64,000 nt of DNA from Streptomyces fagopyri (GTDB taxonomy: Bacteria; Actinomycetota; Actinomycetes; Streptomycetales; Streptomycetaceae). The notes under the pieces were generated by a model. The model was given only the letters and a program-made list of their open reading frames with translations, did no database searches and was not told where the DNA came from. The position numbers and the translations under genes were made by a program. Positions 38,244-55,673 of this stretch are shown one piece after another. The stretch covers positions 310,001 to 374,000 of the forward strand of contig NZ_CP045643.1 of the NCBI RefSeq assembly GCF_009498275.1. Reading direction: 5' to 3'. How positions within the stretch are numbered: position 1 is the first letter of the stretch; every line of letters starts with the position of its first letter.

Positions 38244-38985
38244 GCCGCTGTCGCAGTCCGTCCATGCCTCCGTCCACGGCCAGATTCGTTCCGGTGGTGG
38301 ATCCGGCCGCAGGAGAAACCAGGTAGGCCACGGCTGTGGCGACTTCGTCGGCGGAGACGAGTCGGCCATGAGGCTGCCGGGCTGCCAGCGCTGCGTACTC
38401 GGCAGCCGGGTCCGGCGCCCGGTCCAGGAGTCGGTTCACCCACGGGGTGTCCGCGGTGCCGGGGCTGACGGCGTTGACCCTGATGCCGTCCGCCAGCAGA
38501 TCGGCCGCCATGGCCCGGGTCAGCGACAGCACCGCTCCCTTGCTGGCCGAGTACAGCGCCCGCTGCGGCAGTCCGGCCGTCGCGGCGATGGAGGCGATGT
38601 TGACGACCGCCGCGTGAGCGGAGGTTCGCAGAGCGGGCAGCGCGGCGCGGGTGACCCGCACCATCCCGACCACGTTGATGTCCCAGACCCGGTGCCACTC
38701 CTCGTCGGAGTTGTCCGCGATGCCGCCCTGGGCACCGATCCCGGCGTTGTTGACCAGGATGTCCAAGCCGCCCAGGGCGTCGACCGCGCCGCTCACGGCA
38801 GCCCTGACGGAGCTGTCGTCGCTGACGTCGGCACGCAGGCTCACGAGGTACCCGCTGGGTGCCTCCTGCGCCAGGTCGAGGACGGCGACGTGTGCCCCCT
38901 CGGAGGTGAGCAGGCGGGCCGTGGCCAGGCCGATGCCTGAGGCTCCGCCGGTGACCAGGGCGCGAAGCCCGTCGAGCGCACCCAT
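38233..38985 (-). CDS. SDR dehydrogenase, probable 2-keto-3-deoxy-sugar-acid (L-fuconate-type) dehydrogenase
   Basis: This is a 250-residue classical SDR: TGGASGIG cofactor loop, a VLDLA strand end pointing to NAD, NNAGIG, catalytic Ser in VVNIASIAATAG, YSASKG with catalytic Tyr/Lys, and NLAVDGG near the end. It starts at ATG 38985, one base after the stop of the FAH-family gene, so both are made from one mRNA. Paired SDR and FAH genes of this kind catalyse the last two steps of non-phosphorylative deoxy-sugar pathways (oxidation of 2-keto-3-deoxy-L-fuconate, then cleavage of the diketo acid). The exact sugar is inferred from context. Confidence 0.85.
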   Translation of the reverse strand: MGALDGLRALVTGGASGIGLATARLLTSEGAHVAVLDLAQEAPSGYLVSLRADVSDDSSVRAAVSGAVDALGGLDILVNNAGIGAQGGIADNSDEEWHRVWDINVVGMVRVTRAALPALRTSAHAAVVNIASIAATAGLPQRALYSASKGAVLSLTRAMAADLLADGIRVNAVSPGTADTPWVNRLLDRAPDPAAEYAALAARQPHGRLVSADEVATAVAYLVSPAAGSTTGTNLAVDGGMDGLRQRHEE

Positions 38986-38986
38986 C

Positions 38987-39820
38987 TCAGGCCTGCTCGA
39001 ACGTCTGGTGCTGGCGGCCGAGCCCGTCGATCTCGACGTCCACGACATCTCCCGCCCGCAGGTACGGGGTGCCCGCCAGTCCGAGAGCAACCCCGGCCGG
39101 TGTGCCGGTGTTGATCACGTCACCGGGGTACAGCACCATGAACTGGCTGAGATAGCGGACCAGTTCGAAGACGCCGAAGATCATGTCCGACGTGCTGCCG
39201 TTCTGGCGGACGTCTCCATTGACCGAGAGTCGCAGGCTCAGCGCCTGTGGGTCGGGCACCTCATCGGCCGTGAGAAGCCAGGGTCCCAGCGGGTTGAAGG
39301 TCTCGCAGTTCTTGCCCTTGTCCCACTGGCCGCCGCGTTCGAGCTGGAATTCGCGTTCGGATACGTCGTTGCTGATGGCGTAGGCGGCCACGCAGGCGGC
39401 CGCGGCGGCTTCGTCGGGGAGGTAACGGGCCTCCCTGCCGATGACGACGGCGAGTTCGACCTCGTAGTCGGTCTTGACCGAACCGCGTGGGATCAGCACG
39501 CGATCGTCGGGTCCGACCACGGTGTCGGGGGACTTGAGGAAGATGATCGGCTCGTCCGGGACCGCGGCGCCCGTCTCCGTGGCGTGCTGCCGGTAGTTCA
39601 GCCCGACGCACACGATCTTGCCGATGCCGCTCAGCGGGGGCCCGAATCGGCCTGGTCGTTCGACCACGGGCAGTGCGTCGAGTTCGAGGCCGTCCAGGAG
39701 CGAGGGCAGGGTGTCGGGATTCAGGTCGTCGCAGACGGGACGCAGATCCCGCCATGCGCCGTCCGGTCCGGATACCAGGGGTGCCTCGGATCCTGTCGTG
39801 CCGTGCCGTGCCAGTCTCAT
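38987..39820 (-). CDS. Fumarylacetoacetate-hydrolase-family enzyme, probable 2,4-diketo-3-deoxy-sugar-acid hydrolase
   Basis: This is a 277-residue protein. The N-terminal 65 residues (MRLARHGTTGSEAPLV) are the family's small domain, followed by the FAH fold: IGKIVCVGLNYRQHATETGA, then PDEPIIFLKSPDTVVGP, KTDYEVELAVVIG with metal-binding acidic residues, and VFELVRYLSQFMVLYPGDVI, NTGTPAGVALG. This is the arrangement of ureidoglycolate-lyase-like hydrolases acting on diketo-deoxy sugar acids, giving pyruvate and a hydroxy acid. The start ATG 39820 was chosen because MRLxRxG is the usual beginning of this subgroup. It forms an operon with the SDR downstream. A short relic of a second such gene lies at 51207. 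Confidence 0.88.
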   Translation of the reverse strand: MRLARHGTTGSEAPLVSGPDGAWRDLRPVCDDLNPDTLPSLLDGLELDALPVVERPGRFGPPLSGIGKIVCVGLNYRQHATETGAAVPDEPIIFLKSPDTVVGPDDRVLIPRGSVKTDYEVELAVVIGREARYLPDEAAAAACVAAYAISNDVSEREFQLERGGQWDKGKNCETFNPLGPWLLTADEVPDPQALSLRLSVNGDVRQNGSTSDMIFGVFELVRYLSQFMVLYPGDVINTGTPAGVALGLAGTPYLRAGDVVDVEIDGLGRQHQTFEQA

Positions 39821-40130: not shown

Positions 40131-42494
40131 CTACCGGCCCGCGTGGTTGAACGAGAAGTAGTCGATGTTGCCGAATCCGGGCTGTCCGCCTGGCGCCACG
40201 AGGAAGACGCGGTGGTGTCCGCTGGTGGGGGTGATCGACGTCGACTGGACGGAGAGGGTGTCGAAACCGCCGGTGCCCGCGACGGAGAGCACACCGATCC
40301 GCGGCCCCGTGACGGAGTCGAGGTGGATCTCTATGCCCTTGTTGGCATACGGGTCGTCCACTCCGATGAACGCGGTGAACAGGTTCGCGTCCCTGCCGAA
40401 GTCGACGTCGTCGTAGCCGACCCAGTCACCGCCGTCGAAGCTGCCGACGACCGTGCCCGTGCCGGCGGCATGCGGACTGACCCCGTTGCTGGAGGTGTAG
40501 GACTCGGCTGCGATCCGCTGCCCGACCCGGGTGGCGCCGGCGACCCACTTCGGCTCGCCGTACTGATAGGCGCCCAGGCTCGGCTGCGGGTCGCGGTAGC
40601 CGTCCGTTGCCGGGGGATGGACCACTCCGGCGTTGCGGGCCGGCGAACTCGCGGTGAGCGTGAAGTCGTTCGCGGCCGGGTTGGTGAACTGCGCGGCGCT
40701 CACCGGAGTGAGGTTGTTCGAGTTGGTGATTCCCGGGCCGGTTCCGGTGACGCCGATGTTGTTGACGATCTCGGTGTCGGAGAAGGTGCCGCCGAAGGTG
40801 CTGGCGACGTTTGTGTCGGTGCCGGAGGTGTTGTTGTAGATCCGGTTGCCCGATGTGCTCTGCCCGTTGGGGTTGATCAGGACGGCCCCGTAGGTCGTAC
40901 GGTTCCAGGCGACGTTGTCGTACACCGTCGCGTTGAAGGTGCTGTTGTCCAGGTAGACGCCCGGTGCCGGCGCGGTGTGCGCGAACGGGGACGGGTCGTG
41001 GAACTGGTTGTGGTGAATCATGGTGGTCGCCAGGTTCACCGAGCAGCAGACGTAGACGGCGCCGCCGTCGACGACCAGGTTGTCGTAGTCGGACAGGTCG
41101 TTGTAGGAGATGTCGTGACCGCCCGCCGTGGTCCCCGCGACCTTGTTGTCGATGTTGATGTCGCTGCGGCCGGAGCTCTCGATGGTGTTGTGGGTGATGC
41201 GCTGGTTCGAGCCGAGGACGTTGATGCCCGCCGCGTAGCTGCCCAGGGTGTCCACATGCAGGATCGTGGTGTTCGTGACGGTGTTGCCGCTGTCGAACAT
41301 GGCTACACCGTTGCCGGTGCTGCCGTCGATCAGGCTGTTGCGGATCACGTTGCCGTGGCCCTTGAGGAGGATGCCGGACGTGGTCTCGCCGGCGGTCAGC
41401 ACGGCGCAGCCATCGGGCACGGTCACCATGTTCGGGTCGGGCTTCAGCTCCGCGTCTGCGGAGATGTCCCGCGCCACGATGCCGTCCAGGACGTCACCGG
41501 TCGAGGTCGAGGAGGTCCGGACGGTGGCGCCGCGGATGCCCAGGCCCAGGACGGAGATGTGCGAGCGGCCGCTGAGGTCGATGGCGAGGGCGCGCTGCTT
41601 GGCCTCCGCGGAACGGGCCGAGGGCTTGGAACCGTCGGGCGAGTACAGGTACAGCGTGTGGTCCGAGCTCCGGTAGAACCACTCGCCGGGCTTCCCGAGG
41701 AGCGCGAGCTTTCCCTTGAGGGAGTAGTTGGTGCTCTGGTTCGGGCTCAGCCCGACGCAGGCGGGCAGGCCCGCCGCGGTGATGGTGCCGACCTGTGAGT
41801 CGGTGACGGTGCCCGTTTCGCTGACGAACCAGTTGTGCGCGGTCAGCAACGCGCCGTTCCAGAAGCCGGCCGGCTGTGTCAGGGCGGTGTCGGAGAGGCT
41901 GTCGGTGGTGCCCGACTGCGCGGAGGCCAGTTTCGGCACACTCACGTCGTCGCCGGGATAGGGCCACTGCGCCTCGATCTGCGGAGCGCCGTCCCAGAAC
42001 ACCTGGTTGCCGGTGAGGTGCGGGTTGATCGTGACGTGCGCCCGGTAGACCTGGCCGGTCGCGACCGCGGTCGCGAAATCGGAGCCGGCGAGGAAGGGGT
42101 CGTCGCCTTCGGCGGCGGTCAGGTCGGCGCTGGAGACCGCTTTCCATCCGGTCACGGGGTCGGCGCCGTCGATGACGACCCGGGCACCGGGCGCTGCCGC
42201 GTAGGTGATCGGCGCGGCAGCGGACCCGCTCCGGGCGGGGGTGATCGTCTCGTGATACGTGCCCGATCCGATGACGCAGCGGTCACCCGCCGACATGACG
42301 GCCGAACACCTGCTGACGGTCTCGAACGGCGACCGCGCGGTACCCGGATGCCGGTCCGACCCTCCGGGTGAGACGTAGTACGTGTGTGGACCTTCTGAGG
42401 CATGCGCGCTCGCGGCGAGGCCGCCCGAGCCGAGAGAGAGGAAGACCGCAGCGGCCGCGAGAACGGCTCGGCGGGACCTGGACCGGTTCGACAT
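40131..42494 (-). CDS. Secreted right-handed parallel beta-helix protein with C-terminal CBM6-like domain
   Basis: This is a 787-residue protein. Residues 1-32 form a signal peptide (RSRSRRAVLAAAAVFLSLG, cleavage near AHA-S). The pattern TYYVSPGGSDRHPGT at residue 38 is the classic entrance to carbohydrate-active beta-helix proteins. Helix coils run through about residue 640 (HGNVIRNSLIDGSTGNGVA, NRIYNNTSGTDTN). Residues about 655-787 look like CBM6 (IAAESYTSSNGVSP, GDWVGYDDVDFG, FGNIDYFSFN). The fold is shared with GH141-like fucosidases and several lyases; which activity it has cannot be fixed from sequence. Its position in a deoxy-sugar locus favours a fucose- or uronate-containing polysaccharide. 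The start ATG 42494 is 17 bp from an ATCGAT-type operator candidate. Confidence 0.85.
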   Translation of the reverse strand: MSNRSRSRRAVLAAAAVFLSLGSGGLAASAHASEGPHTYYVSPGGSDRHPGTARSPFETVSRCSAVMSAGDRCVIGSGTYHETITPARSGSAAAPITYAAAPGARVVIDGADPVTGWKAVSSADLTAAEGDDPFLAGSDFATAVATGQVYRAHVTINPHLTGNQVFWDGAPQIEAQWPYPGDDVSVPKLASAQSGTTDSLSDTALTQPAGFWNGALLTAHNWFVSETGTVTDSQVGTITAAGLPACVGLSPNQSTNYSLKGKLALLGKPGEWFYRSSDHTLYLYSPDGSKPSARSAEAKQRALAIDLSGRSHISVLGLGIRGATVRTSSTSTGDVLDGIVARDISADAELKPDPNMVTVPDGCAVLTAGETTSGILLKGHGNVIRNSLIDGSTGNGVAMFDSGNTVTNTTILHVDTLGSYAAGINVLGSNQRITHNTIESSGRSDINIDNKVAGTTAGGHDISYNDLSDYDNLVVDGGAVYVCCSVNLATTMIHHNQFHDPSPFAHTAPAPGVYLDNSTFNATVYDNVAWNRTTYGAVLINPNGQSTSGNRIYNNTSGTDTNVASTFGGTFSDTEIVNNIGVTGTGPGITNSNNLTPVSAAQFTNPAANDFTLTASSPARNAGVVHPPATDGYRDPQPSLGAYQYGEPKWVAGATRVGQRIAAESYTSSNGVSPHAAGTGTVVGSFDGGDWVGYDDVDFGRDANLFTAFIGVDDPYANKGIEIHLDSVTGPRIGVLSVAGTGGFDTLSVQSTSITPTSGHHRVFLVAPGGQPGFGNIDYFSFNHAGR

Positions 42495-42819: not shown

Positions 42820-43479
42820 TCAGTGACCTGGGATCATTCCGTCGTCTCCCCGTGCGTGGGCGGCGAACTCGGCCCCCGCCCGGTCGGGATCCGCGGACTT
42901 CAGAGCGGACAGCAGGGCGGCGTGATCCTCGGCCATGGCAGTCCAGTCGCCGGTGAACAGCGGATCGGACACGACCCGCAGGGCGCGCAGATTCGCTTCC
43001 ATCACCCCCCACAGCTTGGGGAGGAAGGGGTTTCCGCTGGCTTCGCAGACCAAGCGGTGGAAGGTGATGTCGGCATCGCGGAAGCGCCCGACATCACTCT
43101 GGAGCGCGGCCTGCCGCATGGCCCGCACCTGGGCGTCCAGCGCCTCGAATGCCGTGCTCGCGGCCTGCGCCGCCACGGTGCGGGCGGCCAGCTCCTCGAT
43201 CACCACGCGCACGGCGCGCGCGTGGTGGGCGTCCTCCTGCGACACGACCGCCACGAAACTGCCCCGGCGCGGGACATGGTCCGCCAGGCCCTCGTGCACC
43301 AGGCGCCGGACCGCCTCACGCACCGGCGCCTGGCTCACTCCGAGCTGGCGGGCGATCTCGGACTCGACCAACCGGGCGCCAGGTTCGAGCGCTCCCTCGA
43401 TGATCAGGCTTCGCACGCGCGTGTACACCTGGTCGGACAGCAGGACCCGGGTGAGCGGTTGTCCGATGCCGTCTTGCAT
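42820..43479 (-). CDS. GntR-family regulator, FadR subgroup (FCD domain)
   Basis: This is a 219-residue protein. ATG 43479 has AAGGAGG five bases upstream. The winged HTH fills residues 10-75 (QVYTRVRSLIIEGALEPGAR, ARQLGVSQAPVREAVRRL). The FCD effector domain follows, with the metal/ligand residues in RFRDADITFHRLVCEASGN and EDHAALLSAL. FCD regulators commonly sense sugar acids or related intermediates. It is divergent from the ABC importer operon, and two ATCGAT palindromes lie between them, so it most likely represses both the importer/catabolic operon and itself. Two similar sites precede the beta-helix gene. Confidence 0.9.
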   Translation of the reverse strand: MQDGIGQPLTRVLLSDQVYTRVRSLIIEGALEPGARLVESEIARQLGVSQAPVREAVRRLVHEGLADHVPRRGSFVAVVSQEDAHHARAVRVVIEELAARTVAAQAASTAFEALDAQVRAMRQAALQSDVGRFRDADITFHRLVCEASGNPFLPKLWGVMEANLRALRVVSDPLFTGDWTAMAEDHAALLSALKSADPDRAGAEFAAHARGDDGMIPGH

Positions 43480-43511
43480 GAAGCCTCCTTGGCTTAGACC
43501 ACTTCGCATCT

Positions 43512-43519
43512 TATCGATA
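43512..43519. promoter_or_regulatory. ATCGAT-type operator candidate C
   Basis: TATCGATA, inside CTTATCGATAGT, lies 33 bp upstream of the GntR start. It shares the core with candidates A, B and D. Confidence 0.55.
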
Positions 43520-43577
43520 GTCGCCAGGATTTTGTGACGGACCCTTGACATCCGGGTAACGAACATCATCCTATGTT

Positions 43578-43610: not shown

Positions 43611-44936
43611 ATGAGACGCAGCAGACCCATCAGCATCGCCGTGGGGGCGCCCTCCGCCGGTCGCGGAGGACGCGTGAGCTCACGTACGGCGAAGGCCTCC
43701 CTCGCCGCCGGGCTCGCCCTGTCCGTCTGCGCACTGGCAGGGTGTTCGTCCTCGTCCGGGCCGGCGGCCGGGGGCGGCGGCGCACGGACAGGCAACATCC
43801 GCGTCCTGGCCAATATCACCCCCGTGCTGACTAAGGCGTACTACCAGGGCCTGGTCGCTCCGTTCGTCAAGAGCCACCCGGGCGTCACGGTCACCATCGA
43901 GTCGCCCTCCGGCACGAACGTGCAGTCCACGCTCCAGCAGGAACTCGTTTCGGGATCGGCACCGGACATCGTCGCGAGCACCCTCGACCCGGTCGTCGCC
44001 CAGCAGATGATCGCCTTCCCGGACTCCTCGTGGGTGACCTCGACCCCGCTCTCGGACTCCAACAAGGTGGACGGCAAGATCTGGCAGGTCGCCACCGGGC
44101 AGCAGAACCAGTCGCTCGTCTACTACAACCAGACGGCGTTCCAGAAGGCCGGCATCACCACGCCGCCGAAGTCGCTGGCCGAGTTCACGGCGGACCTCGC
44201 CAAACTGAAGGGCGCCGGATACGTCGGGCTGCAGACGGCGGGCGAGTGGGTCACGGGCGCGCAGTTCTCGATGATGGCGAACCCGGGCCTGCTCGGCGAC
44301 GACCCCGGCTGGTACGCCGAACGCAACAAGAAGAAGGTCACCTTCGAGCAGAGCGCCTACAACACGTACCTGAAGGCCTACGAGGGGTGGATCAAGACCG
44401 GGGCGGTCCCCAAGAACTCGCTGGGCGAGAAGTACCAGACCTCGATCGACACCTTCCTCGCCGGCAAGTCGGGCATGTTCGTGATGGGCAGCTGGCTGAA
44501 CGCGAGCGTCAACTCGGCGAAGAACCTGTCCTTCAAGGTGGGCGTGTTCCCGACGCCGACGGCCGACGGATCCACACCGAAGCAGATGAGCGGCCAGGCT
44601 CAGCCCTATTCGATCCTCAAGTCCTCGAAGCACCAGGGCCTCGCCCTCGACCTGGTCAAGTACCTGGTGACGGACAAGAGCGCGGTCACGGCGTCGCTCA
44701 AGTCGGAAGGCAACTTCCGGGCGGGATACAGCTACCCGGGAACCGAACTCGACGCGGCCGTCGGGAAGATCGTCGACACCGCCCCCGGAACGGTCAACGG
44801 CACCGCCGGGCCCGGAGTGAACGCCGGCTTCGGCAACGAGCTCAACACCGTCGTGCAGTCCCTCTACACGGGCGAGTCCGCCGACAAGGCGGTCGCGAAG
44901 CTCGACTCCTGGTGGAACGCCAATGCGGGCCAGTAA
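43611..44936 (+). CDS. ABC sugar importer, lipoprotein substrate-binding protein
   Basis: This is a 441-residue family-1 extracellular solute-binding protein. ATG 43611 follows AGAGG. A signal peptide leads to the lipobox LAGC with lipidation at Cys45, so the protein is anchored outside the membrane. The mature part opens with a linker and strand IRVLANITPVLTKAYYQGLV. NQSLVYYNQTAFQKAGITTP is the hinge region typical of oligosaccharide binders, and VMGSWLNASV a later conserved piece. It is first gene of an operon reaching at least 51148. The substrate is probably a short glycan released by the beta-helix protein and cut inside by GH39/GH3; this is inferred from context. Confidence 0.9.
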   Translation: MRRSRPISIAVGAPSAGRGGRVSSRTAKASLAAGLALSVCALAGCSSSSGPAAGGGGARTGNIRVLANITPVLTKAYYQGLVAPFVKSHPGVTVTIESPSGTNVQSTLQQELVSGSAPDIVASTLDPVVAQQMIAFPDSSWVTSTPLSDSNKVDGKIWQVATGQQNQSLVYYNQTAFQKAGITTPPKSLAEFTADLAKLKGAGYVGLQTAGEWVTGAQFSMMANPGLLGDDPGWYAERNKKKVTFEQSAYNTYLKAYEGWIKTGAVPKNSLGEKYQTSIDTFLAGKSGMFVMGSWLNASVNSAKNLSFKVGVFPTPTADGSTPKQMSGQAQPYSILKSSKHQGLALDLVKYLVTDKSAVTASLKSEGNFRAGYSYPGTELDAAVGKIVDTAPGTVNGTAGPGVNAGFGNELNTVVQSLYTGESADKAVAKLDSWWNANAGQ

Positions 44937-45864
44937 GGAGTCCACCGCCCGCCCGGCCGCCTCCGGGGCGGCCGGGCGTTCGGCCCGGGCCCGCGCGCGG
45001 CGCCGTGCGACCACGGCCGACATCGCGATGATGGCGCCGCCGCTGGTTCTGGTCGCCGGACTCATCATCGTGCCGATCGCGATCGCGGTCTACCTCAGCT
45101 TCACCGACTGGAACGGCTTCACCTCGCCGCCGCATCTGATCGGTTTCCGCAACTACGTCCGCCTCACCGAGGACTCCGCCGTGCGGCACGCGGCGTTCCT
45201 GACGCTCCTCATCACCGCCGTCGGCACGGTCGCCTGCAACGTCCTGGGACTGGGGGTCGCGCTGCTGCTCAACCGCAACAACCGGATCAACGCGTTCCTG
45301 CGTGTGCTCGTCTTCTACCCCTACGTGGTGGGCGCGGTCATCCTGGGCTTCCTCTGGTCGTCCATCCTGGGCACCAGCGGCGCGGTCAACGCGGCGGTCG
45401 GAGCCAAGCATTCGCTGCCCTTCCTCTCGGATCCGACGTGGGCCGTCGTGACGGTGATCTGCGTGATCGTGTGGTCCAGCTTCGGGGTCAACGTGGTGCT
45501 GTACCTGGCCGGCCTGCAGACGGTGCCCGACAGCGTCATCGAAGCCGCGAAGATCGACGGCGCCACCCCGTGGCAGACCTTCTGGCGCGTCAAGCTCCCG
45601 ATGCTCGCACCGACCGTGACCGTGAACGTGGTCCTCGTCGTCATCGGCCTCCTGCGCGTCTACGAGCTGATCCTCGCCCTGACCGCGGGAGGCCCCGCAG
45701 GAGAGACGCGGAGTTTCGTGTACAACATCCTCACGTCGTCGTTCGACAACACCCAACTCGGCTACGGGGCAGCCCAGTCGGTCGTACTGATGGTCGTCAT
45801 CGTCACGGTGACCGTGGCCATCACCGCGGCCCGCCGGCGCAGCGAGCAGGCGGTGGCCGCATGA
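44923..45864 (+). CDS. ABC sugar importer, permease 1 (MalF-like)
   Basis: This is a 313-residue inner-membrane protein with six hydrophobic helices. It starts within the last 14 bases of the SBP gene, a sign of coupled translation. The EAA loop, which contacts the ATPase, reads EAAKIDGATPWQTFWRVKLP near residue 207. The first helix region begins APPLVLVAGLIIVPIAIAVY, followed by the common SFTDWNGF. Its stop overlaps the start of the second permease (ATGA). No ATPase gene is in the operon; streptomycetes normally supply the shared MsiK ATPase. Confidence 0.92.
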   Translation: MRASKESTARPAASGAAGRSARARARRRATTADIAMMAPPLVLVAGLIIVPIAIAVYLSFTDWNGFTSPPHLIGFRNYVRLTEDSAVRHAAFLTLLITAVGTVACNVLGLGVALLLNRNNRINAFLRVLVFYPYVVGAVILGFLWSSILGTSGAVNAAVGAKHSLPFLSDPTWAVVTVICVIVWSSFGVNVVLYLAGLQTVPDSVIEAAKIDGATPWQTFWRVKLPMLAPTVTVNVVLVVIGLLRVYELILALTAGGPAGETRSFVYNILTSSFDNTQLGYGAAQSVVLMVVIVTVTVAITAARRRSEQAVAA

Positions 45865-46691
45865 CCGCCCGCCGCGTGGGCCGCGTCCTGGCCGTCGCTC
45901 TCCTCGTCCTCGTCATGGTCGGCCCGCTGTACCTGATGCTGACCAACGCGTTCAAGTCCCAGCACGACATCCTGGCGGTGCCCTTCGGCTGGCCCAGCGG
46001 CGGGTTCTCGCTGAAGTACCTCACCGACGCGCTGACCTCGCCGGACTTCAACGTCGTCGCCGCCTACGGTGTGACGCTGCTGTTCGTCGTGGCGGTCAAC
46101 GCGCTGAACCTGCTGGTCGTGGGACCCGCGTCGTACGCCATCGCGCGCGGCGGCCGCCGGTACCACCGGGCCATCATGCTCGTACTGCTGGCCGGCCTGT
46201 TCATCCCGGGCCAGACCCTCGTCATCCCGGTCATCTACGTGCTCAAGGCACTCGGGCTGATCGGAACCGTTCCGGGCTTCCTGTTGTTCGAGACCACCCT
46301 GACCGTTCCCACCACGGTGTTCCTGTTCGTCGCGTTCGTGCAGACGGTGCCCCGGGAACTCGACGAGGCCGCGCGGATCGACGGCGCGAGCCGCTACGGC
46401 ACCTTCTGGCGGGTGATCTTCCCGCTCATGCGCCCCGTCGTCGCGACCGCGATGGTCCTCAACTCGATCGGGGTGTGGACGGACTTCGTCAATCCGCAGT
46501 TCATCCTCGGCCCCCAGTCCGGGGTCTACACGGTGACGACAGGTGTGTACGCGGCCATCAGCCGCCTCTCCACCGACTACACGGTCGTGTATCCCAACAT
46601 GCTGCTCGCCACGGCGCCCGTCATCGTGTTCTACGTGTTCATGCAGAAACGCATCATCGGCGGCCTGACCGCGGGCGCGATCAAGGGATGA
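45861..46691 (+). CDS. ABC sugar importer, permease 2 (MalG-like)
   Basis: This 276-residue membrane protein pairs with the preceding permease. TM1 is VLAVALLVLVMVGPLYLML, followed by the usual TNAFKS. The EAA loop reads ELDEAARIDGASRYGTFWRV near residue 172. The C-terminus KRIIGGLTAGAIKG is the standard ending of MalG-type permeases (GLTAGAVKG). It overlaps both neighbours by four bases (ATGA), so the operon is tightly coupled through to the unknown 656-residue protein. Confidence 0.92.
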   Translation: MTARRVGRVLAVALLVLVMVGPLYLMLTNAFKSQHDILAVPFGWPSGGFSLKYLTDALTSPDFNVVAAYGVTLLFVVAVNALNLLVVGPASYAIARGGRRYHRAIMLVLLAGLFIPGQTLVIPVIYVLKALGLIGTVPGFLLFETTLTVPTTVFLFVAFVQTVPRELDEAARIDGASRYGTFWRVIFPLMRPVVATAMVLNSIGVWTDFVNPQFILGPQSGVYTVTTGVYAAISRLSTDYTVVYPNMLLATAPVIVFYVFMQKRIIGGLTAGAIKG

Positions 46692-48658
46692 GCGCGATGA
46701 ACGACACACAGGGTGACCCGCCGCGCATCGACGCGACGGTCCCGGTCCGCGAGACCCCCCTCTGGGCGGTCCTGGAACGACGCCTGTTCTCCGTTCTCGA
46801 CCAGGCGTGGCGCGAGTTCGAGGCGACCTACTGCGGTCCCGACGGGCGCCTGGCCTACGACGGGCGCATGCACCACCGGGACGGCGTCGACGACTTCTAC
46901 GAGCCCTTCTTCAACTGGCCGGTCCTCTACCGGCTCGGCGGCGCGGACGACCTCCTCGCGTCGGCCAAGAAGCACTGGGCCGGGGTGACCGCGCAGATGA
47001 CCGAGTGCGGCTTCGTCCGCGACGAGTACGAGGTCGGCTACGACTGGTTCCACCAGGGCGAGTCGCTGAACTTCTTCTACGCACTGTGCGCCGCCGACCC
47101 GGACGACGCCGCCTTCCGGGAGCGGGCCCTGCGGTTCGCGCGTCTGTACTCCGACCCGGCCCGCGGCAACTACGACCCCGTCGCGCGGATCATCGTCGCG
47201 CCGCACACCGGATCGGGCGGACCGCGGCCGGGCCTGGGAACCGAGTGGATCGAGTACAGCGCGGACCAGGCCGTCATGAAGCCGTACGGTCTGCCGCTCG
47301 ACGACCTGCCCGGCATCACCGACTGGGACGACCTGCTCCCGCCGCGCAACGCGCGGCGCATGGGCGACGCCATGCAGGAGCGGCTCGGCCGGGGCGACAC
47401 CGCCATCAACCTCGCCGCCACCTCACTGGTGACGAACGCGTGGCTCTACGACCACGACGCGGAGTTCGCGGACTGGGTCGTGTCCTACGTCGGCGCGTGG
47501 CGTGAACGCGCCGCGGCGAACGGCGGCCTGATCCCGGACAACGTCGGCCCCTCGGGGATCGTCGGCGAGCTCCACGACGGTCACTGGTACGGCGGCCACT
47601 ACGGCTGGGCCTGGCCGCACGGACTGCACTCGGTCGAGGCGGCGGCCATGATCGCCGCCGTCAACGAGACCCTCGTGACCGGCGACACCACCGCCCTCGA
47701 CCTCGCGCGGGTACCCCTGGACACCGTCATCGCGCGCAGCGTGGTGCGCACCGACGCCGGCACCGCGGGAAGCATGGGCTGGGGCTGGACGCAGAAGATG
47801 GCCGTCGCACCGGGTGTACCGGTCCAGCTCGTGCCCTACCGGCACGGCGCGAACGGCTGGTTCGACCTGCATCCGGTCCCGCTCATCTATCCGGTCTGGC
47901 TGTGGTGGCTGACGTCGGCCACGGGCGATCTGGGACGACTGGAGGCACTGGAGAAGGACGCCGGCTTCGACTGGCGCGAGACGAAATGGTTCCAGGACAA
48001 GGAGGAGCAGGGGCATGAGGCACCGTGGGTGTCGTTCCTGCTCGGCCGCAACCCCGGATACCCCGAGGACGCCCTCGCCCTCGCGCTGGGCCAGGTGACC
48101 AAGCGGCTCGCCCTGATGCGGGCGACACCGTACGGGCCCCCGGACGACGACATCCACTGGTGGCAGCGGCTGAACCCGGTCGTCACCGAGGTGCTCACCC
48201 AACTGGTGACCGGATCGCCGCCCGCGCTCTACAACGGCGGACTCGCACTGGCCCGGGTGACGTTCGGCGACGCCCTGCGCGGCCGGCCCGGCCTGCCTGA
48301 CGGCGTGGCCGCCCTGGTGCGCGAGGCCGACGCCGAGGGTGTGCGCCTCGAACTCGTCAACCTCGACCCGGTCTTCCGGCGGGAGGTCGTGGTCCAGACC
48401 GGCGCGTTCGGTGAGGACCGCATCGACCGGGTGACCTTCGACCAGGCGGCCGAGGACCACCCCGGCGACTCCCACAGCTACCTCATCCCCGATCCGGAGA
48501 CACGGCCGGTGACCACCGTGATCGGGTCACCCCGGCTCGTGGTCGCGCTCCCCCCGCTGCACCGCATCTCGATGCGGCTGGAGGTCACCCGGCGCGCCCA
48601 GAGGCCGGCCCACAGCAGCTTCACCCCCACCCTCACCGCAACCCGGAAAGATTCGTGA
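46688..48658 (+). CDS. Unknown 656-aa cytoplasmic protein of the sugar operon
   Basis: ATG 46688 overlaps the permease stop; a second ATG nine bases later is also possible. There is no signal peptide. The sequence is dense in Trp, Tyr, His and Asp and mainly helical, with repeating blocks such as YEPFFNWPVLYRLGGADDLL, YEVGYDWFHQGESLNFFYAL, IPDNVGPSGIVGELHDGHWY and HYGWAWPHGLHSVEAAAMI. This suggests an (alpha/alpha) toroid with an open sugar-binding cleft, followed from about residue 545 by a beta-rich C-terminal part (VRLELVNLDPVFRREVVVQT). It resembles no characterised family I can name. Its place between importer and lactonase genes suggests action on the imported sugar or on a sugar acid. 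It could be a new glycosidase, lyase, epimerase or dehydratase. Confidence 0.7.
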   Translation: MSAMNDTQGDPPRIDATVPVRETPLWAVLERRLFSVLDQAWREFEATYCGPDGRLAYDGRMHHRDGVDDFYEPFFNWPVLYRLGGADDLLASAKKHWAGVTAQMTECGFVRDEYEVGYDWFHQGESLNFFYALCAADPDDAAFRERALRFARLYSDPARGNYDPVARIIVAPHTGSGGPRPGLGTEWIEYSADQAVMKPYGLPLDDLPGITDWDDLLPPRNARRMGDAMQERLGRGDTAINLAATSLVTNAWLYDHDAEFADWVVSYVGAWRERAAANGGLIPDNVGPSGIVGELHDGHWYGGHYGWAWPHGLHSVEAAAMIAAVNETLVTGDTTALDLARVPLDTVIARSVVRTDAGTAGSMGWGWTQKMAVAPGVPVQLVPYRHGANGWFDLHPVPLIYPVWLWWLTSATGDLGRLEALEKDAGFDWRETKWFQDKEEQGHEAPWVSFLLGRNPGYPEDALALALGQVTKRLALMRATPYGPPDDDIHWWQRLNPVVTEVLTQLVTGSPPALYNGGLALARVTFGDALRGRPGLPDGVAALVREADAEGVRLELVNLDPVFRREVVVQTGAFGEDRIDRVTFDQAAEDHPGDSHSYLIPDPETRPVTTVIGSPRLVVALPPLHRISMRLEVTRRAQRPAHSSFTPTLTATRKDS

Positions 48659-49449
48659 TGGATACCGAGAACCCGTTGTCGACGGTATGGCCGCTGCCCG
48701 TTCGAGGCGAGCCCTTCCACCGTGCCGACGCCGAGAGCCTGCGCCGCATGGACGCGATCAGCGCCGCGACCGCCTGCGCCAAACTGCACACCATGGGCAT
48801 CACCCGGACCGCCGTCCAGGGGCCGACGGCCCTGGAGACCGGCAGCCGCGTCGTCGGATCCGCCCTCACCCTGCAGTTCATGCCACAGCGCGAGGACATC
48901 GCCAGCGGCCACGGCCAGGAGTACATCGAGCGCGACACGGCCCTGTGGGCGGTCCTCGAAACGGTCCAGCCGGGCGACGTGCTCGTCGTCCAGGCGTGGG
49001 GCAGTGCCTTCACCGGCTGCTTCGGCGACATGCTCGTGCGCTACTTCAAGCGCCGAGGCGGCGCCGGCATCGTCGTCGACGGCCGCATCCGCGACGCCGC
49101 CCGGGTCCGCCGGCTCGGCGTGCCGATCTGGTGCACCGGCACCACCCCGCACTACGCGTCCCAGACCGACCTCTTCCCCTGGGCGTACGACGTGCCGGTC
49201 GCGGCGGGCGGCGTACTCTGCCTGCCCGGCGACGTGGTCGTCGCCGACGACGACGGCGCCGTGATCGTGCCGGCCGCCAAGGCCCCCGCACTCATCCAGG
49301 ACGCCGAGGACCACGAGGACTGGGAGTCCTTCAGCCGGATGCGCCTGGAACAGGGCGCCAGGCTGTCCGACTACTACCCGCTCAGCGCCAACAGCCGTGC
49401 CGAGTACGAACTGTGGCGCGACAGCCGGCCGAAGCTGCCCGCCCAATGA
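48658..49449 (+). CDS. RraA-like protein (HMG/CHA-aldolase superfamily)
   Basis: This is a 263-residue protein. Its ATG shares one base with the upstream stop. The RraA fold is clear: ATACAKLHTMGITRT at the start, then the active-site signature GGAGIVVDGRIRDAARVR (Gly loop, Asp, Arg-Asp for metal and substrate) and VPIWCTGTTP. Class II aldolases of this superfamily cleave or decarboxylate keto acids, and RraA-like genes often sit in sugar-acid operons with unproven roles. Here it could split a keto sugar acid or act on it as a dehydratase or isomerase. The insert around ARDIASGHGQEYIERDTALW-type sequence and the C-terminal 60-residue helical tail are longer than in true RraA. The ribonuclease-regulator role is unlikely. 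Confidence 0.85.
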   Translation: MDTENPLSTVWPLPVRGEPFHRADAESLRRMDAISAATACAKLHTMGITRTAVQGPTALETGSRVVGSALTLQFMPQREDIASGHGQEYIERDTALWAVLETVQPGDVLVVQAWGSAFTGCFGDMLVRYFKRRGGAGIVVDGRIRDAARVRRLGVPIWCTGTTPHYASQTDLFPWAYDVPVAAGGVLCLPGDVVVADDDGAVIVPAAKAPALIQDAEDHEDWESFSRMRLEQGARLSDYYPLSANSRAEYELWRDSRPKLPAQ

Positions 49450-50216
49450 TCGACAGCCACATCCACCTGTGGGGCGCCGAGGTCGCGGCTGCGCCCTGGC
49501 TGGCCGGCGAGCGCACCGCGTCGATCCGGCGGCCGGTCGGCCTCGGCGAGTACGCGGCGGCGGCCGGGCCGTGCGGCGTCGACGGAGCCGTCGTCGTGAC
49601 GGCGGAGCAGTCGGCCGCCGAGACGGCCCGGCTCGTCGCGGCGTGCTCGCGGGATCCGCTCGTCCGCGCGGTGGTCGGATGGGCGGACCTCGCGGGCGAC
49701 GTCGGCGCCGCGGACCTCACCGGGCTCGCAGGCATCCGCCACTCCGTGGTCTCCGAGGAGAGCGGCTGGCTGCGGCGGCCACGGGTGCGCGCGGGCATCG
49801 CCCGCTACGCCCGCTCGGGCCTCGCACTCGAACTGCTGGTCGCCGCCCGCGATCTCGGCGACGTGCTGGCCTGCGCCGCCGACCACCCGTCGCTGGTGAT
49901 CGTCGTCGACCACCTCGGCGACCCGGGCGGCGCCGAGGCGCCGTGGCAGGACCGGGTGCGCGCCCTCGCTCCGTATCCGAACGTGCGCATGAAACTCTCC
50001 GGGGACGACGCCCGGCCGGCCGCGCTGGACGTCGCGCTCGACGCCGTCGGGCCGGGCCGTCTCATGATCGGGTCCGACTGGCCGGTGTCGACCCTGCGGG
50101 CCCCGCTCCGCGCCGAGCTCGGGGCCCTGGTCGCGCTCCTCGGCCGGCTCTCGGACACCGAACGCGAACAGGTGCTCGCCGGCACGGCCGCCGACAGCTA
50201 CAGGCTGATCGCATGA
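49446..50216 (+). CDS. Amidohydrolase-family lactonase (probable L-fucono-lactonase type)
   Basis: This is a 256-residue TIM-barrel hydrolase coupled by ATGA overlap to the gene before it. MIDSHIHLWG supplies the HxH metal ligands, VVDHLGDP a later His, and LMIGSDWPVS the catalytic Asp. This is the signature of the 2-pyrone-4,6-dicarboxylate-hydrolase/fuconolactonase subgroup (PF04909). The protein is about 20-30 residues shorter than most relatives. Followed directly by an aldo/keto reductase, it fits hydrolysis of the aldonolactone formed by that enzyme. Confidence 0.85.
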   Translation: MIDSHIHLWGAEVAAAPWLAGERTASIRRPVGLGEYAAAAGPCGVDGAVVVTAEQSAAETARLVAACSRDPLVRAVVGWADLAGDVGAADLTGLAGIRHSVVSEESGWLRRPRVRAGIARYARSGLALELLVAARDLGDVLACAADHPSLVIVVDHLGDPGGAEAPWQDRVRALAPYPNVRMKLSGDDARPAALDVALDAVGPGRLMIGSDWPVSTLRAPLRAELGALVALLGRLSDTEREQVLAGTAADSYRLIA

Positions 50217-51148
50217 GGACCGGTGAACTCGGCTCGTCCGGGGTCCGGGTGACGACGCTCGGCCTGGGAACGGCACAGCTCGGCGACCTCTACGAGGCCG
50301 TCACCCAGGACCGCGCCACAGCGATCGTGGATGCCGCCTGGGACGCCGGCATCCGCTACTTCGACACCGCGCCGCACTACGGACTCGGCCTGGCCGAGAG
50401 GCGGCTCGGACACGCACTGCGCTCGCGGCCGCGGGCGCAGTACGTGCTCAGCTCCAAGGTCGGCCGGCTGATCAGGCCCGGCAGCGACGGCGAACCGGCC
50501 CGGCACTGGGACTTCACCGAGGCCGGTGTCCGCCGCAGCGTCGAGGAATCGCTCGAACGCCTGGGACTGGACCGGCTCGACGTCGCACTGTTGCACGACC
50601 CACAGGAGCGGCTCGCGGACGCGCTCGGCACCGGCCTTCCGGCGCTGACGCGGCTGCGCGACGAGGGCGTGGTCGGCGCGATCGGCGTCGGCACCGGCGA
50701 CATGGCGGCCCTCGCCGCCTTCGCGACACGCGGCGAACTCGACACCATCATGATCGCCGGACGCTACACCCTCCTGGAGCAGCCCGCGCTCGCGCAGGTC
50801 GTCCCGGCCGCCCGCGCGGCGGGGATCTCCGTGCTCAACGCGGGTGTCTTCAACAGCGGGATGCTCGCGCAGGACCGCCCCGCCGCGGACTCCCACTACG
50901 AATACGGCGCGGCCCCCCGGCAGTTGCTGGAACGGGCGCGACGGCTGGCCGATCTCGCCGCCGCAGCCGGTACGACGCTTCCGCGGGCCGCCCTCGCCTA
51001 CGCGGCACGCGACCCGCTGGTGGCGTCGGTCGTGGTCGGCGCCGACACCGCCGAGCAGGTCCTCGCCAACGTACGCATGGCCCAGGACCCGTGCCCGCTG
51101 GACGGACTGTGGAGCGAACTCGTCGCCCTCGGGCTCATTCCCGCCTGA
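50213..51148 (+). CDS. Aldo/keto reductase, probable L-fucose (D-threo-aldose 1-) dehydrogenase
   Basis: This is a 311-residue AKR, overlapping the lactonase by four bases. ELGSSGVRVTTLGLGTAQLG starts the barrel. AGIRYFDTAPHYGLGLAERR contains the catalytic Asp and Tyr. VLSSKVGRL supplies the Lys, and DVALLHDPQ the His-equivalent position. VVVGADTAEQVLANV binds the cofactor near the C-terminus. This subgroup (TAPHYGLGxxE) contains the D-threo-aldose/L-fucose 1-dehydrogenases, which oxidise L-fucose, D-arabinose or L-galactose to the lactone. It would be the first enzyme of the pathway, paired with the lactonase upstream. Confidence 0.87.
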   Translation: MRTGELGSSGVRVTTLGLGTAQLGDLYEAVTQDRATAIVDAAWDAGIRYFDTAPHYGLGLAERRLGHALRSRPRAQYVLSSKVGRLIRPGSDGEPARHWDFTEAGVRRSVEESLERLGLDRLDVALLHDPQERLADALGTGLPALTRLRDEGVVGAIGVGTGDMAALAAFATRGELDTIMIAGRYTLLEQPALAQVVPAARAAGISVLNAGVFNSGMLAQDRPAADSHYEYGAAPRQLLERARRLADLAAAAGTTLPRAALAYAARDPLVASVVVGADTAEQVLANVRMAQDPCPLDGLWSELVALGLIPA

Positions 51149-51356: not shown

Positions 51357-52940
51357 ATGGAACCGGATCTCGACCTCACACTCGACTTCGCCGGCGCACC
51401 CGATGCGCCGTTGGACCACTTCTGGAGCCGTGTCGTCGGCGCCGGCCGAGCGAACGAGGGACTGCGCGCCGACTGGCAGGGCCAGTTGGCGCAGGCGCAC
51501 CGGCTCGGCGGCTTCGGCTACGTCCGCTTCCACGGCCTGTTCCACGGCGACATGTTCGTCTACCGCGAGATCGACGGCGCGGTGGCGCCCTCCTTCCACT
51601 ACGTCGACCTGCTGTTCGACGCGATCCTCGCCGCCGGCGTGCGGCCGTTCGTCGAGTTCGGCTTCTGCCCGCCGGAGCTCGCCCGCGAGACCGCGACCGT
51701 CTTCTGGTGGGGCGCCAACGGGGCGCCGCCGACCGACTACGCGAAGTGGGCCGAGCTCGTACGCGCCACCGTCGAACACTGGGTCGGGCGCTACGGGATC
51801 GACGAGGTACGCACGTGGTACTTCGAGGTGTGGAACGAGCCGAACCTCGGCCCGTTCTTCCGCGGCACCCGCAGCGAGTACTTCGAGCTGTACCGGGTGT
51901 CGGCCGAGGCGGTGAAGTCGGTCGACCCGACCCTACGCGTCGGTGGCCCGGCCACCAGCAACTTCGTACCGGACTCTCGCTTCGACGGCGAGACCGAGGA
52001 CACCACACAGCACGAGACCGTACTCACCGCCCCCGACCTCGACTCTCTCGACTGGCAGCCGGTGTGGCTGGAGGAGTTCCTGCGATTCTGCGCCGCCAAC
52101 CGGCTCCCGGTCGACTTCATCTCATGCCATCCGTATCCGACCGACTGGGCACTGGACGGGCACGGCAACGGCCGCAAACTCACCCGCGGTGTCGACGCCA
52201 CCCCGACCGATCTGCGCCTGGTGCGCGAGATCGTCGACGCCGGCCCGTACCCGCGGGCCGAGATCCACCTGACCGAGTGGAGTTCGAGTTCCAGCTCGCG
52301 GGACTTCACCCACGACTATCCGCAGGCCGCCGCGTTCGTGGTCCGCTCGGTGCTCGCCTCGATCGGCCTGGTCGACAGCCTCGCCTACTGGACCTTCACC
52401 GATGTCTTCGAGGAGGAGGGCGCCGGCCGCGATCCGTTCCACGGCGGGTTCGGCATGCTCAGCCAGCACGGTGTCGCCAAGCCGACGATGCACGCCTACC
52501 GGATGCTGAACGGGTTGGGCGACCGGCTCGTCCACCGCCAGGACGGCTTGGTGGTCACCCGCCGCGGAACCGGCGTGGCGGCGCTGGCCGTTCACTATCC
52601 GGACGAGGTCGCACTGACCGTCCCCGCGTCGTTCGACACGCGTGACGTCGCCGACCGCACCCTGGCGACGGGGCGACCGCGAGCCCTGCGGCTCCGCATC
52701 GCCGGGCTCGTGCCCGGCGAACGCTACGAGCTGGAAGTGGTCGACGCCGAGAACGGCTGGGCGATGGCGGAGTGGACGCGGCGCGGTCGCGGCACCAACC
52801 CGTCCGTGGCGGACGTCGCCGCGATCCGCGCGAGCGCCGAGCGCGGCGCGGTGACCCGCCTCACCGTCTCCGGCGACGGTGTGCTCGAAGTCGACGCGCG
52901 ACTGCGGCCGTGGGCGATCGCGCTGCTGAACCGCATCTGA
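51357..52940 (+). CDS. Glycoside hydrolase family 39 (beta-xylosidase-type)
   Basis: This is a 527-residue cytoplasmic enzyme without signal peptide. ATG 51357 has GGGAG eight bases upstream. It shows the clan GH-A barrel features. RTWYFEVWNEPNLGPFF holds the acid/base Glu161. AEIHLTEWSSSSSS holds the nucleophile Glu307. FGYVRFHGLFHGDMFVYRE and HYVDLLFDAILAAGVRPFVE are characteristic of GH39. The last 110 residues form the usual beta-sandwich. Family members remove beta-xylosyl or related residues, some from deoxy-sugar-containing glycans. It would trim the imported oligosaccharide inside the cell together with the GH3 enzyme downstream. Confidence 0.9.
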   Translation: MEPDLDLTLDFAGAPDAPLDHFWSRVVGAGRANEGLRADWQGQLAQAHRLGGFGYVRFHGLFHGDMFVYREIDGAVAPSFHYVDLLFDAILAAGVRPFVEFGFCPPELARETATVFWWGANGAPPTDYAKWAELVRATVEHWVGRYGIDEVRTWYFEVWNEPNLGPFFRGTRSEYFELYRVSAEAVKSVDPTLRVGGPATSNFVPDSRFDGETEDTTQHETVLTAPDLDSLDWQPVWLEEFLRFCAANRLPVDFISCHPYPTDWALDGHGNGRKLTRGVDATPTDLRLVREIVDAGPYPRAEIHLTEWSSSSSSRDFTHDYPQAAAFVVRSVLASIGLVDSLAYWTFTDVFEEEGAGRDPFHGGFGMLSQHGVAKPTMHAYRMLNGLGDRLVHRQDGLVVTRRGTGVAALAVHYPDEVALTVPASFDTRDVADRTLATGRPRALRLRIAGLVPGERYELEVVDAENGWAMAEWTRRGRGTNPSVADVAAIRASAERGAVTRLTVSGDGVLEVDARLRPWAIALLNRI

Positions 52941-53282: not shown

Positions 53283-55673
53283 ATGACCACTGTTGCGAAA
53301 AGCACTGAAGGCGCCGCCGGGACGAAGCTCTGGCGTGATGCCTCCGCCCCGGCAGACGACCGCGTACGGGACCTGATGTCCCGGATGTCGCTGCGGGAGA
53401 AGGTCGCACAGCTCTCGGGGATATGGGTCGGGGCCGACCCGACCGACGGCCAGGTGGCCCCGCAGCACGAGTCGGCGCCGAAACCGGCGCCCTGGCCCGA
53501 CCTGATCCGCCACGGTGTGGGCCAGATGACCCGCCTGTACGGCACCGCACCGGTGGACCCGGTGGCCGAGGCGCAAGTCGTCGCCGCCACCCAGCGCCAG
53601 ATCACCGCGACCGGTCCCGGCATCCCCGCGATCGTCCACGAGGAGTGCCTGACCGGCCTCGCCGCCTGGCAAGCCCCGATCTACCCCGCACCCCTGTCCT
53701 GGGGCGCGAGCTTCGACCCGGACCTCGTCCGCCGCATGGCCGTCCAGATCGGCTCGACCATGCGCCGCCTGGGCATCCACCAGGGACTGGCCCCCGTCCT
53801 CGACGTCACCCGGGACCTGCGCTGGGGCCGCACCGAAGAGACCATCGCCGAGGACCCCTACCTCGTCTCCACGATCGGCGCCGCGTACGTGTCCGGGCTG
53901 GAATCCACAGGCGTCGTCGCCACCGTCAAACACTTCGCCGGCTACAGCACCTCCCGCGCCGGACGCAACCTCGCCCCGGTGTCCATCGGCCCACGAGAAC
54001 TGGCCGACGTCATCCTTCCGCCGTTCGAGGCCGCGCTGCGGGCCGGCGTGCGATCGGTGATGAACTCCTACACCGACCTCGACGGCGTCCCCTCCGCAGC
54101 CGACGCCTCACTCCTGACCGAGCGGCTCCGCGGCACCTACGGCTTCACCGGCACCGTGGTGTCCGACTACTTCGCCATTCCCTTCCTGGAGACCTGGCAC
54201 AAGACGGCGGGCTCCAGCTCCGAGGCCGCGGCCCAGGCCCTGGCCGCGGGCATCGACGTCGAACTGCCCAACGCCGACTGCTACGGAGCTCCCTTGCTGG
54301 AGGCGGTCGAGTCGGGCCTGGTGGACCTGGCACTCATCGACCGCGCGGTGGAGCGCGTGCTGACCCAGAAGTGTCAGCTCGGCCTGCTCGACGCCAACTG
54401 GTCGCCGCAGCCCCCCATCCTGGGTGAGTCCGAAGCCGTGACCAAGGCCGATGCACAGGCGGGGAGAACGGCCGGATCGCCGCTCGACGACGCGTCCACC
54501 CGCGCGCTCGCGGCGGCACTGGCCCGCCGCTCGATCGTCCTCCTGCGCAACGAAGCGGCAGCCCTGCCCCTGGCGGCCGGGGCGCGCCTGGCCGTCGTGG
54601 GTCCGCGCGCGAACGTCGCGGACGCGATGTTCGGCTGCTACTCGTTCCCACGGCACGTCGGGCTCCGCCACCCGGACGTGCCACTCGGCATCGAGGTGGA
54701 AACCGTTCTCGACGCGCTTCGCCAGGACTCTGCCGGGTACGCGGTGACCTTCGCGGAGGGCTGCACGGTCACCGGCGGCGACGCGGAGACCGTCGCAGAG
54801 GCCGCCGCGGCAGCCCGCGAGGCGGACGTGTGCGTGGCTGTGCTCGGCGACACCGCCGGCCTGTTCGGCACCGGCACCTCCGGCGAGGGCTGCGACGTCA
54901 CCGATCTGCGTCTGCCCGGCCGGCAGGGCGACCTGCTCGACGCTCTCATCGCGACGGGAACGCCGGTGGTCGTCGTGCTCCTCGTCGGCCGCCCCTACGA
55001 ACTGTCCCGGTACGCCGACCGACTGGCCGGCATCGTCTGCGCCTTCTTCCCCGGCGAGGAGGGCGGCGGCGCGATCGCGGACGTCCTCGCCGGCCGTACG
55101 GAGCCGGCGGGGCGCCTGCCCGTGGGATTCCCCGCCGAGGGGGCGAACCAGCCCTCGACCTACCTCGCCGCCGCGCTCGGCCGGCAGAACGTCCTCAGCC
55201 CGATGGTGGACCAGACCGCGCTGTTCCCCTTCGGACACGGGCTGTCGTACAACCCGGCGGTCTGGGCACGGGTGGAGTCGACGGGATCCGGAACCTGGCC
55301 GACCGACGGCACCTGCCGCGTCGCGGTGACGCTGCGGAACACCGGTACCACCGCCACCAGCGAGGTCGTCCAGATCTACCTCCACGACCTCGTCGCCGAG
55401 GTGGCGCGCCCCGTCCAACTCCTCGTCGCCGCACCCCGGGTGGACCTCGCCCCGGGTGCGACCCGCACGGTTCTCGTCGACCTGCACGCCGACCAGACGT
55501 CGTACACCGGACTGGCCGGCCGGCGCATCGTCGACCCCGGGGACGTCGAACTCTGGGTGGGCGCGTCCAGCACCGACATCCGCACGACCCTTCCCGTCCG
55601 CCTCACCGGCCCGCGCCGCGAGGTGGGCTTCGACCGGCGTTTCCAGCCCGAGGTGTCGTTCGTCGAGGGGTGA
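53283..55673 (+). CDS. Glycoside hydrolase family 3
   Basis: This is a 796-residue cytoplasmic enzyme. AAGGA precedes ATG 53283. The (beta/alpha)8 domain includes VGQMTRLYGT, IPAIVHEECLTGLAA, LAPVLDVTRDLRWGRTEET and VVATVKHFAGYS. The nucleophile is Asp295 in GTVVSDYFAIPF. The second alpha/beta domain (SIVLLRNEAAALPLAAGARL) supplies the acid/base side, and a FnIII-like domain (LFPFGHGLSYNP onward) ends the protein. Sequence around the nucleophile (SDYFAI) is that of beta-xylosidase or beta-glucosidase-type members acting on oligosaccharides. It is probably a separate transcription unit serving the same locus, with its own 340-bp leader containing the (GTCCG)8 repeat. Confidence 0.92.
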   Translation: MTTVAKSTEGAAGTKLWRDASAPADDRVRDLMSRMSLREKVAQLSGIWVGADPTDGQVAPQHESAPKPAPWPDLIRHGVGQMTRLYGTAPVDPVAEAQVVAATQRQITATGPGIPAIVHEECLTGLAAWQAPIYPAPLSWGASFDPDLVRRMAVQIGSTMRRLGIHQGLAPVLDVTRDLRWGRTEETIAEDPYLVSTIGAAYVSGLESTGVVATVKHFAGYSTSRAGRNLAPVSIGPRELADVILPPFEAALRAGVRSVMNSYTDLDGVPSAADASLLTERLRGTYGFTGTVVSDYFAIPFLETWHKTAGSSSEAAAQALAAGIDVELPNADCYGAPLLEAVESGLVDLALIDRAVERVLTQKCQLGLLDANWSPQPPILGESEAVTKADAQAGRTAGSPLDDASTRALAAALARRSIVLLRNEAAALPLAAGARLAVVGPRANVADAMFGCYSFPRHVGLRHPDVPLGIEVETVLDALRQDSAGYAVTFAEGCTVTGGDAETVAEAAAAAREADVCVAVLGDTAGLFGTGTSGEGCDVTDLRLPGRQGDLLDALIATGTPVVVVLLVGRPYELSRYADRLAGIVCAFFPGEEGGGAIADVLAGRTEPAGRLPVGFPAEGANQPSTYLAAALGRQNVLSPMVDQTALFPFGHGLSYNPAVWARVESTGSGTWPTDGTCRVAVTLRNTGTTATSEVVQIYLHDLVAEVARPVQLLVAAPRVDLAPGATRTVLVDLHADQTSYTGLAGRRIVDPGDVELWVGASSTDIRTTLPVRLTGPRREVGFDRRFQPEVSFVEG

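Follow-up and report, generated by a model that had tools for sequence, protein, structure and literature searches.

Gene X of Streptomyces fagopyri (positions 46688-48658, plus strand) encodes a 656-amino-acid protein of predicted alpha/alpha-toroid fold within an operon for sugar uptake and oxidation. It lies in a window of 64,000 nucleotides, the whole stretch analysed, which covers positions 310,001 to 374,000 of NZ_CP045643.1. Our tentative reading, to which we give somewhat less than an even chance, is that X acts in the cytosol as a dehydratase of sugar acids (aldonates), non-orthologous to the known enzymes and of a fold class new for this reaction. We are a shade more guarded about the wider proposal that X represents a further class of sugar-acid dehydratases that replaced the enolase-type enzyme in actinobacterial oxidative L-fucose-like pathways and feeds an RraA-family aldolase, with a Chloroflexi branch applying this chemistry to different sugar acids.

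Gene X in an operon with no recognised dehydratase

The reading frame of X is open without an internal stop and interlocks with both neighbours: the 3' end of the gene for ATP-binding cassette (ABC) permease 2 (45861-46691, plus strand) shares four bases with the X ATG, and the X stop shares four bases with the start of an RraA-like gene (48655-49449, plus strand). The initial annotation, which had called X an integral operon member, was right in this respect. Overlaps of this kind continue downstream, where the starts of a lactonase gene (49446-50216, plus strand) and an aldo/keto reductase (AKR) gene (50213-51148, plus strand) each lie inside the preceding gene. Upstream are an ABC sugar-binding protein (43611-44936, plus strand; profile match to SBP_bac_1) and permease 1 (44923-45864, plus strand); permeases 1 and 2 cluster with the first- and second-permease genes of related loci, respectively. 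The RraA-like protein (PF03737), a candidate 2-keto-3-deoxy acid aldolase, aligns to PDB 5x15 over 249 residues (431 bits). The lactonase is a fuconolactonase-like amidohydrolase-2 protein that scores 121 bits, below the NCBIfam cut-off of 400, and the closest solved relatives of the AKR are L-galactose dehydrogenases (124 bits). No signal peptide was visible on X by eye. Next to a GntR gene, we read binding protein, permease, permease, X, RraA, lactonase and AKR, then GH39 and GH3 glycoside hydrolase genes, as one operon plus followers.

The window contains the dehydrogenase, lactonase (sub-cut-off in NCBIfam), short-chain dehydrogenase (SDR), FAH and RraA types of an oxidative aldose operon of the L-fucose type, and its dehydratase slot is filled only if X fills it. 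A conventional sugar-acid dehydratase is lacking nearby, as had been pointed out initially: the host genome has five MR_MLE_C and three IlvD/EDD matches, none of them inside the window (310001-374000), and no match to UxaA/GarD or UxuA. Among 36 members of the X family, X included, hmmscan detected no MR_MLE domain (PF02746, PF13378), no IlvD/EDD domain (PF00920) and no UxaA/GarD domain (PF04295). The dehydratase reading draws on this combination of AKR, lactonase, RraA and importer with no known dehydratase in the operon.

In the route that we infer, the importer would take up an aldose of the L-fucose, L-galactose or D-arabinose series, the AKR would oxidise it to a lactone, and the amidohydrolase would open the lactone to an aldonate. 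X would then dehydrate the aldonate (loss of the C2 hydrogen and the C3 hydroxyl) to a 2-keto-3-deoxy acid, which RraA would split into pyruvate and an aldehyde. In other loci, and possibly in the window too, an SDR and an FAH-family protein could process the 2-keto-3-deoxy acid instead. The dehydratase reading gains from a KduD-like SDR in locus L079 (328 bits against a cut-off of 339) and from the FAH-family protein of the window (38987-39820, minus strand; closest solved protein L-2,4-diketo-3-deoxyrhamnonate hydrolase 8gsr, 256 bits), since both enzyme types expect 2-keto-3-deoxy acids or their products. It also gains from a published RraA-family dehydratase/decarboxylase that uses a 2-keto-3-deoxy acid (PMC8563752).

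Distribution of X and of enolase-type genes

A lactonase profile run against 158 genomes of the class gave 70 hits in 48 genomes. X occurs in nine of the 158 genomes at ten places, nine of which have a lactonase hit no more than about 14 kb away; this linkage, with lactonase present in just 48 genomes, supports the dehydratase reading. Each of the 70 regions around a lactonase hit, at most some 19 kb long and in several cases ended by contig edges, was scored with profiles built in this analysis; the X locus without a lactonase hit (L171) was left out. Among the 46 regions with both lactonase and AKR, MR_MLE was present in two and absent from six of those with X, and present in 33 and absent from five of those without X (Fisher p = 0.0011, a value that ignores kinship, five of the six X-only loci coming from one genus, g32). 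For all 70 regions the corresponding counts were 2, 7, 39 and 22 (p = 0.028), and both comparisons involve home-made profiles, related genomes and two overlapping regions of one genome (G136). That X-bearing lactonase and AKR loci mostly lack MR_MLE and X-free ones mostly have it favours X as a dehydratase. The two regions with both X and MR_MLE are L143, where two gene sets lie side by side, and L157.

Two genomes carry both systems: G136 (L143, L160) and G029 (L177, L047) have a canonical SDR/FAH/MR_MLE/AKR/lactonase set together with an X-RraA-AKR-lactonase set, and the coexistence of two sets with separate AKR and lactonase genes is a further reason for the dehydratase reading. Among 45 X genomes, which belong to 45 of the 80 X loci compared below, MR_MLE was found at E ≤ 1e-10 in 44 and IlvD/EDD in all 45. 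The genome without such a match is G043 (L073, S. tateyamensis), with one weak MR_MLE match (1.4e-8) and one IlvD. In G007 (L013, N. marmorisolisilvae), the one MR_MLE protein is MenC (437 bits, cut-off 288), accompanied by a weak match (8.5e-7) and one IlvD; we take the weak matches in both genomes to be glycolytic enolase. PF04295 and PF03786 were absent from all 11 genomes tested, including the host, G007 and G043. Both G007 and G043 have a lactonase beside X and an AKR in the genome, and G043 also has a mutarotase-like gene beside X, its AKR adjoining an SDR on another contig. These two genomes have no sugar-acid dehydratase of the four classes sought beyond the single IlvD, and this is the strongest single argument for X as a dehydratase; it rests on two of 45 genomes, on assembly completeness, and on the single IlvD serving amino-acid synthesis.

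Several observations weigh against a dehydratase, besides the kinship behind the p-value given above. At least four MR_MLE matches are present in 43 of the 45 X genomes, and the L157 region alone holds three MR_MLE genes. In the Chloroflexi-type loci L053, L064, L068, L071 and L077, X adjoins an MR_MLE gene, the nearest 18-871 bases away, and that of L068 exceeds the cut-off for D-galactonate dehydratase. A UxuA/AP-endonuclease-like gene stands right before X in L080 (1999-3081, with a 4-base overlap), L068 (8906-9988) and L053 (8907-9989); the L053 copy matches PF03786, and its counterparts in L068 and L080 are 88 and 72% identical. These arrangements suggest another step for X in the Chloroflexi-type loci. 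In an Amycolatopsis locus (L058), MR_MLE is 0.2 kb from X. In a tree of X proteins (midpoint root only), MR_MLE lies within 5 kb in nine of 91 rows, seven of which, six Chloroflexi-type loci and L157, fall outside the main actinobacterial set of 79 rows. We also considered the MR_MLE genes close to X in L005, L008, L010 and L035 as counter-evidence and dropped them: two (L005, L008) score as D-galactonate dehydratase and one (L035) as ManD, and these genes, including that of L010 by its like layout, probably belong to other pathways.

The host itself provides a further counterpoint, with a second, canonical oxidative L-fucose operon at C1:1741605-1745230 that comprises a lactonase (1741605), an AKR, an SDR and an L-fuconate dehydratase-like enzyme, the last matching the solved L-fuconate dehydratases 1yey/2hxt with 695 bits. 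The substrate of the X operon may therefore be another aldose, and L-fuconate, one of the candidate substrates named at the outset, is not assured. The aldonate dehydrated by X in this host, if any, probably differs from that of the canonical operon or is handled in a parallel route. By its nearest solved relatives, the window AKR hints at L-galactose, yet L-fucose would also fit.

The X family, its predicted fold and competing functions

A protein search with X returned at least 1228 homologues at E ≤ 0.001, and the 120 listed align over 83-100% of its length, which excludes chance. All 120 are labelled PF26099, and those with a name are mostly called "hypothetical protein". A Chloroflexi query gave at least 3274 matches, from sources that include Chloroflexi, Latescibacteria, Armatimonadetes and Dehalococcoidales, again with PF26099 on all 120 listed. 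X therefore belongs to an already labelled sequence family, for which our search of open-licence papers found no publication, nor one on an X-like dehydratase. Characterised relatives were equally lacking: Pfam (in a copy evidently without PF26099) assigned no family to X and, for 36 X-family members, a single best match to Alginate_lyase at E 0.018; NCBIfam gave no match for X or for a 38-member family set; and PDB sequences gave no credible match for X or the family. The initial claim that X matches no characterised family holds with respect to function, no confident match to one having appeared; as a sequence family, X is not new.

Residues R64, D65, D68, D69, Y71, E72, D119, H122, E125, H173, D237, R274, D284, H311, R385, D393, H490, Q493, E501 and R533, among others, are conserved in at least 99% of 126 aligned members; in a 38-row alignment, H173, H490 and R533 stand at 90% or more, below invariant. 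Three motifs stand out on the plus strand: R64-D65-G-x-D68-D69-F-Y71-E72 (46877-46903), Y118-D119-x-F121-H122-Q-G-E125-S (47039-47065), in which Y118 and F121 reach the same level, and H490-x-W-Q493-x-L-N-P-V-x-T-E501 (48155-48190). Residues D65, D68, D69, E72, D119, H122, E125, R274, D284, H311, R385, D393 and E501 would form part of the active-site lining and could bind a metal.

Two AlphaFold models (predicted local distance difference test 86-87) show an alpha/alpha toroid with a C-terminal beta domain, in agreement with the toroid-like character first noted in the sequence. Alpha/alpha toroids are a fold class familiar from glycosidases and epimerases. The models are about equally similar to GH76, GH47 and sugar 2-epimerases, AGE tying with GH76/GH47 within 1 Z unit, and unsaturated glucuronyl hydrolase and LanC-type cyclases score close to them; because these are near-equal, the fold does not decide the function. 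Foldseek with the full model had its best hit, at E 1.9e-4, in 7tkv, an uncharacterised Thioredox_DsbH-domain protein, and with the barrel alone had no match reaching 0.001. The likeness of X to GH76, GH47, GH127 and AGE-type toroids lies in the predicted fold class and the many conserved aromatics; X differs from them in sequence, sharing 7-16% identity in the listed structural alignments and matching no profile, the Pfam profiles of GH76, GH47 and GH127 being unmatched by the 36 X-family members, X included.

The initial annotation expected a new family of glycosidases, lyases, epimerases or dehydratases, and the genomic context favours the last, with two rivals. The main one is that X belongs to a new family of intracellular glycoside hydrolases, splits imported oligosaccharides and passes the aldose to AKR and lactonase, the dehydratase being encoded elsewhere or unknown; we regard this as a possible but rather doubtful explanation. 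A toroid fold with conserved aromatics is in keeping with a glycosidase, we know of no aldonate dehydratase with such a fold, and the Chloroflexi loci in which X stands beside enolase-type genes favour this rival. A glycosidase would, however, leave G007 and G043 with no dehydratase of the four classes other than a single IlvD, and would not account for the tendency of X and MR_MLE toward mutual exclusion in lactonase and AKR loci. It fits poorly with L163, L165 and L169, where X overlaps AKR by four bases and the putative importer genes are 6-8 kb off, and with the window itself, which already has GH39 and GH3 genes in the same direction. We consider it improbable that X resembles the GlcNAc 2-epimerase and cellobiose 2-epimerase group in activity and, as an epimerase or isomerase, turns the imported sugar into a form accepted by the AKR: the AGE model is absent from the Pfam matches (E ≤ 1) of the 36 members, the structural score is the tie mentioned above, and the dehydration step would stay unfilled. 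X itself is a real finding in a family that is uncharacterised as far as we have seen, and the probability left by these three readings goes to an unknown function.

A further candidate was discarded. Linalool dehydratase/isomerase (PF18566), which we take to be a toroid dehydratase, is the UniRef name on two homologues (P0071, P0111). Neither matches the Ldi profile, the profile-profile probability against seven Ldi proteins is 4% over 21 columns, and no linalool-dehydratase chain is among the best 50 structural matches listed, which excludes nothing.

Gene neighbourhoods and comparison with known pathways

We compared the best 80 of 536 X loci, a set in which close relatives are over-represented, scoring genes by profile within each locus. 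Lactonase was found in 59 loci, RraA in 51, the binding protein in 50, AKR in 47, SDR in 20, MR_MLE in 12, mutarotase in 10, zinc-dependent alcohol dehydrogenase (ZnADH) in five and FAH in two. All loci but L045 could be mapped; in these 79, the second permease is immediately upstream of X in 68, and 67 have a binding protein from one of two clusters. Homologues thus do recur with sugar importers and lactonases, the absence of which would have spoken against the initial annotation. In one group of loci X is paired with RraA, often together with AKR and lactonase; in another it is accompanied by a mutarotase-like gene and lactonase, and in some of these also by ZnADH, SDR and AKR. No strict alternation of RraA and SDR after X emerged (RraA only in 35 loci, both in 16, SDR/ZnADH only in six, neither in 23).

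PDB 5x15, the match of the window RraA, is presumably S. coelicolor RraAS2. RraAS2 is described as an RNase ES inhibitor (PMC10126417). The recurrence of RraA in 51 of the 80 X loci, mostly directly downstream of X, points to an enzyme of sugar acids instead of, or besides, an RNase ES inhibitor.

Genes of deoxysugar-glycosidase type, in clusters named from one scanned representative each, also occur near X (GH95 in 15 loci, GH141-like in 15 and seven, GH29 in five, GH106 in five). Many actinobacteria have proteins of about 1340-1420 amino acids near X (L165:3425-7675, L143:4514-8539, L046:15812-19882), one cluster of which is present in 13 loci; those scanned, in L165 and L143, have beta-helix and Ig-like domains, a combination reminiscent of GH141-type enzymes. 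A DUF6772 protein (L147:12132-13013, 376 bits) lies between presumed permeases and AKR-lactonase, and a gene of equal length is similarly placed in L148. In L009 (15583-20255) and L011 (14688-20222), enoyl-CoA hydratase, CoA-transferase III, SDR and DUF4432 genes, assigned by cluster, stand beside X-RraA-GH141-like genes, a set that we cannot fit to the sugar pathway.

The remaining genes around X in the window comprise GH39 (51357-52940) and GH3 (53283-55673), both profile matches on the plus strand with no signal peptide visible by eye. On the opposite, minus strand are the GntR/FCD regulator (42820-43569, profile match), a secreted-looking (by eye) beta-helix protein with CBM6 (40131-42494), whose GH141-insert match is below cut-off, the FAH-family protein and an SDR dehydrogenase (38233-38985, from clustering and profile).

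In the literature, the oxidative L-fucose pathway consists of mutarotase, dehydrogenase, lactonase and dehydratase, followed by an aldolase (route 1) or by a dehydrogenase and hydrolase (route 3) (PMC11199699); FucD is enolase-type (PMC13406643), other sugar-acid dehydratases are of UxaA/GarD and IlvD type (PMC6336799), and FucD is missing beside the fucose genes of Algoriphagus (PMC5507952). The X loci share with the canonical operon the lactonase family, AKR, SDR, FAH and, in some, a mutarotase-like gene. They differ in that X, which has no MR_MLE domain, occupies the slot expected for the enolase-type enzyme, often followed by RraA with or without SDR. The reaction proposed for X would be like that of the UxaA/GarD and IlvD/EDD types, to which it has no sequence match.

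The X family is large (one Chloroflexi query alone gave the thousands of matches above) and without a published function that we found. As a dehydratase, X would add aldonate dehydration to a fold class of glycosidases and epimerases and would complete seemingly incomplete actinobacterial deoxy-sugar pathways; as a glycosidase, it would stand for a new family whose sugar series is predicted. The X loci further hint that RraA proteins of the 5x15 type could be enzymes of sugar-acid metabolism.
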